Positions 3,891 through 60,510 of a stretch of DNA of 64,000 nt are shown one piece after another. Origin of the DNA: Sialis fuliginosa (Eukaryota; Arthropoda; Insecta; Megaloptera; Sialidae); NCBI GenBank assembly GCA_961205875.1, contig OY540810.1, positions 22,196,001 through 22,260,000 on the forward strand, given 5' to 3'. The position numbers and the translations under genes were made by a program. The notes under the pieces were generated by a model. That model was not told where the DNA came from, did no database searches, and saw nothing but the letters and a program-made list of their open reading frames with translations. The number at the start of each line of letters is the position of its first letter. Position 1 is the first letter of the stretch.

Positions 3891-3911
3891 ATCATCCCGG
3901 GAAAAAATTTC

Positions 3912-4120
3912 AGATCTAAAGTGATCAAATCAGATCTGCATTTTTACAGATCTGTTTTGATCTCCATTTTGGAACATATCAACGCAGATCAACACAGATC
4001 TATGTTGATCTGCGTAGATCAACACAGATCAAAACAGATCAACACAGATCTGAGTAGATCAACACAGATCAAAACAGATCTGCGTAGATCAACACAGATC
4101 AAAACAGATCTGCGTAGATC
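3912..4120. repeat. GATC tandem array, left arm
   Basis: Successive 10-base words such as agatcaacac, agatcaaaac and agatctgcgt form a higher-order 30 bp unit, clearest at 4013-4120. Roughly 20 GATC sites occur in about 210 bp. Short overlapping frames here on both strands only encode the repeat (DQHRSKQ-like words) and are not genes. Confidence 0.9.
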
Positions 4121-4431
4121 GGGGATTTGATTATGTTTTTGTACACACACACACAGCTTGACTTCCCGCAGTAACTGGGTTCGAAGAGCAATCCTGGAGA
4201 AGAGAACCACCATATATGTATTGTATTACCTTATTACTAACTGATCCGACTTGGCTTATATACGAATGAAAGTGAAAATACTGTGTTGGCGAGAGCTATG
4301 TTGCGATATTTATATATTATACATACATAATAATATGTACCTACTTATTCATAAATAAACTTTTGTCTACCTTAAATAACAAATACACATATACTATATA
4401 GAAACCTTGTTTATAATTTAATCAATTAAAA

Positions 4432-4790
4432 AAAAATTGTACAGAAACGTACTGAATGATATTTGAGGCCCGTGTATTAAATTAATAAATAAATTCACAA
4501 CCCACCCCCTGTCACAGATGAAGGGTTGTAATTGGTCTCATTCGATCCAGCGGGAAAAATACTTCGGGATACCAGGGGTATGGGGGGCAAAACAACCCTC
4601 TATCTAGCACAGGAGTCGAGATATTTACGATTTTCTATAATGAATACCATAAGTAGCGAAACAGAAAAAAATTCAATATTTACTGTTAATACAGCATAGA
4701 AACATAAGATATTATTATTAAATTTAATAAAATGAAAAAAAGTCCAGACACGTATTAAGTGATATTTAAGGCCCGTATTGTTAAAATAAC
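4432..4790. repeat. Imperfect direct repeat and an embedded 'cgggaaaaatac' repeat unit
   Basis: The block 'acagaaacgtactgaatg ... gatatttgaggcccg' at 4432-4485 recurs diverged at 4736-4790. 'aacaaatacacatat' occurs beside each in permuted order (4379 and 4789), as expected of a broken tandem duplication. Between them, 4500-4640 holds 'gggttgtaattggtctcatt' plus 'gcgggaaaaatac', a dispersed repeat also present at 7.77, 27.9, 58.8 and 60.1-60.5 kb. Confidence 0.65.
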
Positions 4791-4845
4791 AAATACACAT
4801 ATTTTTTTTAATTGATTAAAATACAAACAATACGTTTCAATCTCA

Positions 4846-5230
4846 CGATCTACGACGATCTGCAATGATGTACAACGATCTACAAAGATCAACAACGATC
4901 TGTAAAGATTTACAACGATCTGCAAAGATCTACAACGATCTATAAAGATCACGATCTGCAAAGATCTGCAACGATTTACAAAGATCAATAGCGATCTACA
5001 AAGATCTGCAACGACCTACAACGACCTACAACTATCTGCAAAGATCAACAACGATCTATTAAGATCACGATCTGCAAATATCTATAACGATCTGCAAATA
5101 TCTACAACTATCTGCAAAGACCTACAACGATCTACAACGATCTGCAAAGATCACGATCTACAAAGATCTACAGAGACCTACAACTATCTGCAAAGACCTA
5201 CAACGATCTACAAAGATCTAAAAAGATCTG
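4846..5230. repeat. GATC tandem array, right arm (about 38 units of 10 bp)
   Basis: Ten-base units of the form cgatctacaa / agatctgcaa run almost without interruption. Occasional 2-6 base insertions (for example 'agatcacgatct') shift the register. Its inverted orientation relative to the left array means the two arms could pair in part. No open frame of substance is present. Confidence 0.9.
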
Positions 5231-5389
5231 ATTTGTTCCAAAATGAAGATCAACCGAGATCACTTCATTTCTGAAATTTTTTCCCGGAATGTTTATTATT
5301 AAGATTGTAAAATAACAATTTAAGAACAACATATTAAAAGAATATTAAAATTTTAAAAAACATCTGCCAAGTATGAAAATGTAGTTAAT

Positions 5390-7330: not shown

Positions 7331-7754
7331 TTCCTGTACTTTTTATACGAGTATATATTTAATTTCCTTCAATAGTAATGTTATCACCAGTTCAAACAAA
7401 GTTTTCCTCTACTTTTTCATTGCATATTGTAGTAGTTCAGGTGAAAAAAAACAACAGATATCTCATACATGGTAGATGGTATTCTACATATACATATATA
7501 AAGCAGGGCTGGTCAACCCGCCACATATGAAGAAATTATGTTTAAAAAATATTATTCTATTTATGTGACGTAACTAATCATTTTAATTGATAATTTTGTT
7601 TTATAATATAATACAAAATTAGAATTTGAAGTATTATTGTAAATAAATAAAACCATTATTTATTAGTATTTTAAATATTTGATACCATACATATATATTT
7701 TGTTGTTGGCTATATGTATTATTACATTTACTATGATTGAACACTTGCTTGTTT

Positions 7755-7815
7755 TTTCCTCTCGGATTGAATGAGACAAATTACAACCCTTTATCTGTGA
7801 TGATGGGGCGAAATA
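7755..7815. repeat. Single fragment of the 'cggcgggaaaaatac' repeat, reverse orientation
   Basis: 'ggattgaatgagacaaatta' followed by 'caaccctttatctgtgatga' and 'ggcgaaatatt' matches the tandem unit at 60.1-60.5 kb and the reverse complement of 4500-4560. Short and diverged. Confidence 0.65.
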
Positions 7816-8449
7816 TTGAGATTTTTTTTTCATTAATTAATTTCATACTATGTTCAGTTTTAATTTTATTTTTGTATGCTTGTTTAAAAATAATACATAA
7901 ATGAATTTTTAAATAAATCCCGTCACTGGCTGTATGGCTGAAAATATTATATTTTCTATGATATAAAAAAAAAGTACAAATTATAAACGTATTTTTTAGA
8001 TGTCCACTTATTTCATCTCTTAATAGTTCAATATTGAATACGACACGGTTTTATAAATAAACCTATCGAGTCACCACTAAACTAAATATGCGATAATCCT
8101 ACATAATATCAACAAAAAATAAATACTTCTTATATCATATTTTTTTATAACCACTTATGCAAATAGCATGAAAGTCTAGTTCATGATCAAGTTTCCTTGA
8201 TCTGCTGAAATCAGTTGAAAGTGAATGTTGTATTAAACATAATAATATATTGTATACATACATACATACATGGATTGTATACAAATACAACAGTATCAGT
8301 TCAAGGACGTTCAAGGTATGACTGGTTGAATTACTTTTTTGCTTAAAATTGCACACTAACGCGTCTATGCGGTGCAGGGCCGTATGATTCAGTCAAGTAT
8401 ATCCCCACAACTTACAGGCCAATGTAAATTTATTTTGTAGATAAAGATA

Positions 8450-27544: not shown

Positions 27545-28050
27545 ATAAATAATATATAAAAATATAGGTTTTGGTGCGTATGTATGTGAGATCATCACGC
27601 CTAAACCATTGCACGTATCGAAGCCATATTCACACAATATATTCGTTTGGTGCTCCGTTAAGTTTATCTTTTTTTGGACCCGGTAGGTAGCGCTGGGGTC
27701 GAGAATGTGTATTTATGACCCGAATATTGGCCCATATTCAGAATATATGTTAGTTACGTGAAAATAAATATTTTTACAAAAAATGGACCCGATAGGTGGC
27801 GCTGGATATTTACGAAAATGTGTATTTACGGTCTGATTTGACTGTATTCAGAATATGTTTGTACAAAATATTTTTATGTAGTACTTCTGATAGGTGACGT
27901 TAGGTGATTGTTTCCCCCCCCCCTAAAACCCCCACCTCCATGGTATTTTTCCCACCGGATCTAATGAAACTAATTACAACCCTACATACGTGACTGGGTG
28001 TAAAATATTAACTCCCGTGCGAAGCCGGGTCGGGTCCGCATGTTTATAAT
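27545..28050 (+). mobile_element. Helitron-like (Lep1-type) non-autonomous remnant
   Basis: A start of the type 'ataaaaatataggttttggt', a 'cgcctaaaccattgcacg' segment, a 'cccaccggatctaatgaaac' repeat unit and an end 'actcccgtgcgaagccgggt' follow the plan of short interspersed elements common in Lepidoptera. Those usually end near 'gaagccgggcgggtcgctag' and have been assigned to Helitrons. The terminal CTAG is missing here, so the copy is truncated or decayed. Two ~120 bp subunits ('gacccggtaggtagcgctgg', 'gacccgataggtggcgctgg') are tandem-like. Family assignment from memory. Confidence 0.5.
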
Positions 28051-58795: not shown

Positions 58796-58814
58796 AGAAA
58801 AAATAATAATTTAA

Positions 58815-59183
58815 TATTGCATCCCCTGTCGCGTATGGAGAGTCGTAATTATTTTCATTCGATCCGGCGGGAAAAATACTATGGGGAAGTACCCTCTCTC
58901 GCATAGGAGCCGAAATATTTACAATTTTTTAAGTTCGGTTAGGTAAATAATACATACCTATAGATAATACAAATTTTTGTATGATAATCGATAAACAGGT
59001 CAAATTTTACACACCCATTTTTTTATCTAATACATTTTTCGGGATACAAAGTAGCATATGTCGTTCTTCAGGATGCAAGCTATCTTCCAGCCAAATTTCA
59101 TGAAGATCGGTTCATCGGTTTAGTCGTGAAATGGTAAAAAAAACAGACAAACACACTTTCGCATTTGTAATATTAGTATGGAT
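58815..59183 (-). mobile_element. Lep1/Helitron-like short element with 'cggcgggaaaaatac' unit
   Basis: Reading the minus strand, it begins near 'ccatactaatattacaaatg' / 'cgaaagtgtgtttgtctgtt' and continues with a 'gatgaaccgatcttcatgaa' segment and 'atcctgaagaacgacatatg'. It reaches a diverged 'ccgccggatcgaatg' unit at about 58865. This order is typical of the very abundant lepidopteran short elements. The far end (GAAGCCG...CTAG) is not visible. Confidence 0.6.
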
Positions 59184-60073: not shown

Positions 60074-60510
60074 ATCCCCCCCCCCCCCCCCCCCGATCGA
60101 ATGAAACAAATTAAAACTATCCATATATGAAAGGGGGTGAAATATTAAATTTGTTTCCTTTTATTCATTATAGAAAAACGTAAATATCACGGCTCATATG
60201 CGTGATAGGGGGTTGTTTTACCTCTAAAATCCTCAACCCCGTAGTATTTCTCCCGCCGGATCTAATAAAACTAATTAAAACTCTTCATATTTGAATAGGG
60301 GGTGAAATATTCCTTTTTTTTCATTCATTATACAAAATCGTAAATAACTCAATTCCTATGTGAGATAAGGTGTTTTTTTTCCTTCTAAAACCCCAACCCT
60401 CGTGGTATTTTTTCCGCCGGATAGAATGAAACCAATTACAACCCTGAATAAATAACAGGGGGTGAAATATTAATGACCAAACAATTTTTTTCCATACAAA
60501 CTTTTCCACC
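60074..60510. repeat. Tandem array, about 160 bp unit, three copies
   Basis: Unit starts near 60092, 60255 and 60413, each beginning CGATCGAATGAAAC / CGCCGGATCTAATAAAAC / CGCCGGATAGAATGAAACC. Each continues with 'agggggtgaaatatt', 'attcattata', 'cgtaaat' and a 'ccccaacc...gtggtattttt' block. Single units of this family lie at 4.5, 7.77, 27.9 and 58.8 kb. A C-run of about 17 precedes the array. The minus frame 60321-60593 is a reading of it. Confidence 0.85.

Follow-up and report, generated by a model that had tools for sequence, protein, structure and literature searches.

A mobile element family with a terminal GATC triplet and 10-bp GATC arrays in the genome of Sialis fuliginosa

Results

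Borders and parts of the element

The window analyzed is a stretch of 64,000 nucleotides of the genome of Sialis fuliginosa (contig OY540810.1, positions 22,196,001 to 22,260,000), an assembly of 392 Mb in 20 contigs with a GC content of 27–30%. Positions 3896–5288 of the window are occupied by a complete non-autonomous element of 1393 bp, belonging to the long class described below. Its borders were set by the comparison of copies and by a target-site duplication (TSD) of the dinucleotide AT, recognized by flank comparison at 3894–3895 on the left and at 5289–5290 on the right. The left end consists of a terminal inverted repeat, CCCGGGAAAAAATTTCA (3896–3912, forward strand), followed by an array (3913–4120, forward strand) with 19 GATC words mostly at 10-bp spacing; the array opens with a phased triplet (3913–3936, forward strand), in which the distances of GATC to the tip are 18, 28 and 38 bp. 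Then come a left inner segment (4121–4329) and a middle segment (4330–4838, approximate borders) that shares sequence with a dispersed repeat. The right part contains, on the reverse strand, the right array (4844–5231), the right phased triplet (5248–5271), with GATC present at 38 and 28 and the word at 18 lost in the window copy, and the right terminal inverted repeat (5272–5288), mutated in its last base (A at 5288 in the window copy, G in 34 of 39 right ends). The matching inverted ends described in the initial annotation of this locus are thus present, with borders, 3896 (C) and 5288 (A), that lie one base further out on each side.

The window copy is 95.8% identical to copy L014 over 1396 aligned bp, and its longest open reading frame, of 77 aa, lies partly within the right array. 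The inverted repeat between both arms is limited to the outer 60–90 bp, approximately, where one block of 52 nt (79%) overlaps with another of 33 nt (85%), and the left and right arrays have different spacers. The element displays the features of a non-autonomous DNA transposon or MITE: inverted ends, TSD, many copies and no transposase gene inside. Relatives of the middle segment occur elsewhere in the window, at 60162–60465, 58798–58931, 27901–28001 and 7752–7839. The region 60159–60471 is formed by two tandem units of about 160 bp related to the middle segment, followed by a tail that we take to resemble the 3′ ends of RTE-type non-LTR elements.

Copies, target-site duplications and empty sites

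A genome search with the ends had been proposed in the initial annotation; the 18-bp end gave 880 exact matches (432 forward and 448 reverse), versus none for the reversed control. An exact 2-bp TSD was found in 33 of 39 paired elements (mean of 7.9 with shuffled flanks), and flank duplications of 5 bp or more in none of the 39. These elements were obtained by automatic pairing from the fetched loci, without L001, L002, L004 and L005, which duplicate L009/L010; the 39 rows include a mispaired one (L022), two of L025 with a common right end, and one displaced by one base (L033). The six rows without TSD are L018, L022, L023, the second one of L025, L033 and L045. Loci with an unrecognizable partner end, e.g., L032, L034, L043 and L046–L048, are outside the 39.

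The duplicated dinucleotides were TA (12), AT (7), TT (3), TG (3), AA (3), TC (2), CA (1), CT (1) and AG (1). Around them, C occurred at −1 in 19/33 sites, G at +2 in 13/33, T at −4 in 22/33 and A at +5 in 25/33, the outer-flank background frequencies of these bases being 0.12, 0.11, 0.38 and 0.39, respectively. Within single sites, positions −4 and +5 were complementary in a fraction of 0.58 and positions −1 and +2 in only 0.30, so the palindromic target is a property of the average. Uninterrupted paralogues of the empty site, with a single copy of the dinucleotide, were found for L026 (TG), L036 (AT) and L041 (AA). The duplication of 2 bp at insertion is what a 2-bp staggered cut would give.

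The linkage of the ends to the interior was studied with a 36-bp marker of the left inner segment (106 genomic places with up to 3 mismatches) and a marker of the right array (143 places, same tolerance), 100 places of each being considered. In the part of contig C1 below 35.94 Mb, an exact end in the correct orientation lay 900 bp or less from 14 of the 17 left-inner markers listed and from 13 of the 16 right-array ones, with a chance expectation of about 0.001 per marker. Genome-wide, the right-array marker was 600–760 bp from at least 58 of the 100 left-inner markers listed. In view of the TSD, the empty sites and the marker linkage, the region 3896–5288 of the window is, as the initial annotation had proposed, one mobile element, and not two adjoining satellites.

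Structural classes and age

Exact ends formed 37 pairs of inward-facing neighbors on C1; in 32 of these pairs the ends were less than 8 kb apart, with lengths of 601–700 bp (16 pairs), 1278–1404 bp (8 pairs) and 203, 263, 361, 970, 1617, 3146, 3309 and 3636 bp. The copies of about 700 bp that were fetched form a palindromic class, with two right-type ends flanking an inverted middle segment, in which arrays are absent and little is kept beyond the terminal triplet. In the long class, including the window copy, one arm is of the left type and the other of the right type, both with arrays; the copies of an old class, of about 300–400 bp, carry shorter arrays in each of their arms. The mean pairwise divergence was 2.2% for the long class (9 copies), 2.8% for the short class (11 copies) and 13% for the old class (6 copies), and the number of GATC words per copy was 39–50, 8–10 and 11–17, respectively.

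Regularity and growth of the GATC arrays

The 10-bp GATC arrays that had been noticed in both arms are real. The left arm (3913–4120) contains 16 pairs of GATC words spaced 10 bp, and the right arm (4844–5231) 27 exact words, also with 16 such pairs. In 1000 dinucleotide shuffles of each arm, the mean number of pairs at this spacing was 0.03, with maxima of 1 and 2. Only 2 GATC occur in the middle of the element (4121–4843), and the remaining 62.6 kb of the window contain 116, with one pair spaced 10 bp. The suggested autocorrelation at 10 bp was also found, since base identity at lag 10 was 0.61 in the left arm and 0.68 in the right one, and it was still 0.55–0.70 at lags of 20, 30 and 40. 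Tandem Repeats Finder gave periods of 10, 30 and 40 in the left arm, and of 10, 16, 20, 76 and 96 in the right arm.

A set of 14 selected copies yielded 11 right arms, and all of them except that of L015 were used for the consensus of the right array (10 arms). This consensus contains 39 units of approximately GATCTRCAAM, separated by 35 steps of 10 bp and three of 6 bp, which are phase breaks. In these units, the four GATC positions contain 1.52, 2.00, 1.45 and 1.66 bits of information versus 0.76–1.66 bits in the six spacer positions. The left array retains GATC and the 10-bp pitch with spacers unlike those of the right array, in units that were chosen by GATC.

The indels between aligned array copies measured 10, 20 or 40 bp. 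The array marker lay at distances from the right tip that were equal modulo 10 in 11 of 13 copies, i.e., the length of the right arm changes mostly in 10-bp steps. In young long copies, changes affected 19/1548 bases in GATC phases versus 21/2318 in spacers (p 0.34), with no sign of constraint on these arrays following insertion. GATC phases thus mutate as spacers do, and the changes of length indicate that whole units are gained and lost by the arrays.

The terminal GATC triplet

A new observation is that most ends of the family have in common a GATC triplet, with its words at distances of 18, 28 and 38 bp to the tip, despite spacers that vary with the type of end. In 36 elements (72 ends; L022 and L025 were excluded and one end of L033 was placed by hand), GATC was present at these positions in 66, 65 and 62 ends, respectively, and at all three in 54. 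GATC was less frequent at other offsets, with 13 ends for 54, 8 ends for 48 and about one or two ends for each of seven further offsets. The pattern formed by the inner tip and the triplet had 918 exact matches in the genome, with none for the reversed control, and among the exact tips of C1 up to 34.46 Mb the triplet was full in 79 of 95 and incomplete in 16.

The spacer at positions 32–37 is TCGGTT in right-type ends (44) and AAATCA in left-type (12) and old-type (11) ends, i.e., it differs at every base between the former and the latter; the bases beyond position 41 differ among the three types. The GATC at 38 is nevertheless present in 42/44 right-type, 12/12 left-type and 8/11 old-type ends. 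In old-type ends, GATC bases departed from the consensus in 4/132 cases versus 23/198 for spacers (Fisher p 0.007), while the difference was not significant when the three types were pooled (14/804 versus 33/1206, p 0.18; 67 of the 72 ends, leaving out five of other types). It should be taken into account that the ends are kin by descent, so that the words are not independent, and that left-type and old-type ends have the same spacer 32–37.

Search for an autonomous partner

The autonomous relative whose transposase the initial annotation had envisaged between such arms was not found near 189 marker places: among the matches listed, the nearest of 164 domain or protein matches (146 DDE_Tnp_4, 8 tnp2 and 10 MULE; YqaJ was excluded) was at least 9.7 kb away. 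The family, with its 880 exact tips, is only partly covered by these marker places, some of which may mark one element twice. The family matches in the genome were at least 146 for DDE_Tnp_4 (best 150 of 189 candidates scored), 2 for Transposase_21, 10 for MULE and 16 for YqaJ, and the tnp2 protein query gave 8. Concerning MULE, none of the 10 matches was within 9.7 kb of the 189 places of this partial mapping of the family.

No family ends were found within about 1.5 kb on either side of 20 of the 146 DDE_Tnp_4 matches; L052 and L057 showed one weak end resemblance each (5 mismatches allowed in 20). Four of the eight tnp2-like places (C10, C14:1730109, C11 and C13) showed no family ends in about 2–2.5 kb on each side, a search that at C13 covered the flanks and excluded the stretch around the open frame itself; L075 showed one weak end resemblance (6 mismatches allowed in 20).

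As other observations on these loci, long open frames related to tnp2, of 748, 933, 826 and 716 aa, were found in L069 (C10:1744038–1746281), C11:624318–626525, L070 (C14:1730109–1731770) and C13:17827641–17828702. In the one of C10, a copy of the middle-segment repeat (85.5%, 311 bp) lies directly after the stop codon. ISL2EU-like loci were found in L049/L050 (C1:39661030 and C14:6009813), L051/L052 and L053/L055, with DDE and YqaJ genes about 1 kb apart on opposite strands; because the genes are open and the copies are 98.2–99.8% identical, these copies are probably recent. Of the 146 DDE_Tnp_4 matches that were scored, 51 lie on contig C14 (16.8 Mb), far above its share of the genome; this contig is possibly a repeat-rich or special chromosome.

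The presence of unusually long copies was also considered. The middle segment was at the expected distance, up to 260 bp, from at least 74 of the 100 left-inner markers listed and not from 26, although, as 100 of its 113 places were compared, ordinary copies may be present among the 26. At C1:30714534, about 3.9 kb separate the left-inner marker from the middle segment. A few loci among the 26 were read, namely L018, L026 and L037. Among the long-spaced end pairs of C1, considered as autonomous candidates, L026 (3.3 kb) and L018 (3.6 kb) were rejected because these copies are enlarged by nested palindromic elements, and L025 (3.1 kb) because another element, with ends of its own, is nested in it. 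The insertions in L018 (1062–3380, about 2.3 kb) and L026 (about 1060–2910, about 1.8 kb) are two different palindromic elements, nested in long-class copies at a similar place between the left inner and middle segments. The one in L025 (4113–6001) has ends near GCCCGGTCAAA, an apparent TA duplication, and inverted arms of about 660 bp that flank an open frame of 195 aa with no Pfam match over the cut-off.

Discussion

Relationship to known superfamilies

The arms of Drosophila FB elements hold 10-bp repeats. The present family resembles Foldback-type elements (Tetris, Tm1, FB) in its non-coding copies, its inverted arms and its variable numbers of short tandem repeats. As to the arms, arrays are present in both of them, but in the window copy the pairing between arms is confined to their outer part, and the palindromic copy of about 700 bp is devoid of arrays. 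In the passages of the sources compared, Tetris has tandem units of about 220 bp in the arms and TSD of 8–10 bp (PMC4079207), while Tm1, from nematodes, has units of about 14 bp and TSD of 8–10 bp in 45 of 53 elements (PMC3169594). Here there are instead 10-bp GATC units, unlike arrays in each arm and TSD of 2 bp in 33 of 39 elements, and Foldback/MULE was rejected because these are not duplications of 8–10 bp.

Tc1/mariner was rejected since TA accounts for just 12 of the 33 matching TSD. CACTA termini carry a CAC(TA) motif, and subterminal repeats are typical of CACTA elements. The family tips are CCCGGG, without this motif, and four tnp2-like loci have no family ends in their flanks; on the other hand, the length of the TSD lies within the 2–4 bp given for CMC (CACTA/Mirage/Chapaev) in the passages compared of PMC4482050, and the genome contains tnp2-like genes. 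Membership in CMC is possible despite tips without CAC.

Concerning the PHIS group, short palindromic targets are a common trait, being A|AT|T, with AT only, for ISL2EU, and C|TNA|G for NuwaII (passages of PMC4482050). However, the TSD of the present family comprise nine different dinucleotides, and the ISL2EU-like pair L049/L050 begins with another end; the family does not fit ISL2EU, since AT makes up just 7 of the 33 TSD and the commonest neighbors are C before and G after, rather than A|AT|T. The family is like MITEs in being short, non-coding, bounded by inverted ends, flanked by TSD and present in hundreds of copies, and unlike them in having a long class of 1.3–1.4 kb with arrays.

Elements of the P type produce TSD of 7–8 bp. 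Galileo, of the P superfamily, is alike in its long arms with tandem repeats, but the 2-bp TSD argues against this assignment and the P-type TSD is absent. Still, with a THAP domain that binds several sites within the tandem repeats of the arms (passages of PMC3688188), Galileo is the closest experimental precedent for arm-repeat binding among the passages compared. No such element as the present one was found in the passages seen of the open-licence PMC literature (including PMC4482050, PMC4079207, PMC3688188, PMC2872659, PMC3169594 and PMC3143072); an entry in a repeat database is possible.

Interpretation of the triplet and the arrays

From the sequence comparisons, the reading that we favor, with a probability of about 0.6, is that of a non-autonomous, MITE-like cut-and-paste family, foldback-like members included, in which the triplet would be a putative docking module and the long arrays its expansions. 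Movement would take place in trans, by means of a DDE transposase encoded elsewhere and acting on the inverted ends CCCGGGAAAAAATTTCA. The three palindromic GATC words, one per helical turn, could dock the transposase or an accessory protein. Slippage or unequal exchange would expand the module tandemly into the arrays of the long class, which would perhaps add binding sites but would be dispensable for movement. The long arrays look dispensable because the abundant class of about 700 bp, half of the close C1 pairs, keeps little beyond the triplet.

The initial annotation had suggested that the arrays may be phased binding sites, for a transposase or a host protein, facing the same side of the helix. 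Phased binding is plausible, at the level of sequence, because the triplet is common to types of ends with different spacers. In B-DNA, three words spaced 10 bp apart face nearly the same side over the 20 bp that they span, and the claim of a common side fits the triplet. It does not hold for the whole right array, because the three 6-bp steps reset the phase and the coherence of GATC phases was 0.27 at a period of 10.0 and 0.35 at 10.5. The left array showed greater regularity, with a coherence of 0.64 at 10.0, 0.67 at 10.2 and 0.29 at 10.5.

Among the alternatives, it is possible, though not the likelier case, that the arrays are functionless repeats produced by neutral slippage, with GATC persisting through descent from one seed unit. 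The unit-sized changes of length agree with this, as do the success of a class without arrays and the lack of sparing of GATC in the array copies and in the pooled ends. However, neutrality leaves unexplained the sparing of GATC in old ends, as well as its conservation at 38 beside a fully different spacer 32–37.

It is rather unlikely that the long arrays are functional as multi-site binding arrays, i.e., as transposition enhancers or arrays for host proteins, by analogy with Galileo, whose THAP domain would be the model for such binding. In favor of this, the right-array units contain 1.45–2.00 bits in GATC versus 0.76–1.66 in the spacer positions, and both GATC and the pitch of 10 bp are maintained in the left array despite its other spacers. 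Against this, the array-less class of about 700 bp makes up 16 of the 32 C1 pairs below 8 kb and is similarly young (2.8% versus 2.2% divergence).

More doubtful is the idea of an undescribed lineage with C|NN|G targets and a 2-bp stagger, in which three GATC words on one face would be read by a multimer and amplification of the word would lead to satellite-like arrays.

The initial annotation had also considered that the arms could act as a hairpin or bent DNA, which would make a folded strand the mobile intermediate. The hairpin finds partial support: the left arm alone does fold strongly (z −10.6), and one copy of about 700 bp (L010) forms a near-perfect hairpin without arrays, with −315.9 kcal/mol versus −59.3 on average for 20 shuffles, but the folding of the right arm is modest (z −3.5) and the inverted repeat between the arms of the window copy comprises just the outer 60–90 bp. 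A duplication of 2 bp is compatible with DDE strand transfer, and a folded intermediate seems very improbable. Finally, a chance neighborhood of two satellites, with ends and arrays occurring independently, is hardly credible: among the matches listed on C1, 27 of the 33 markers are linked to an exact end and the 6 without one within 900 bp are explicable by mutated ends, and to this are added the TSD of 33 of the 39 elements and the empty sites.

Transposons with repetitive arms are already well known, and the function of their repeats is rarely testable. In the genome of S. fuliginosa, sister classes with the same tips coexist with and without arrays, so that the minimal end and the growth of the array are experimentally separable. 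The module common to most ends suggests a route by which a terminal recognition motif may turn into a satellite-like array.
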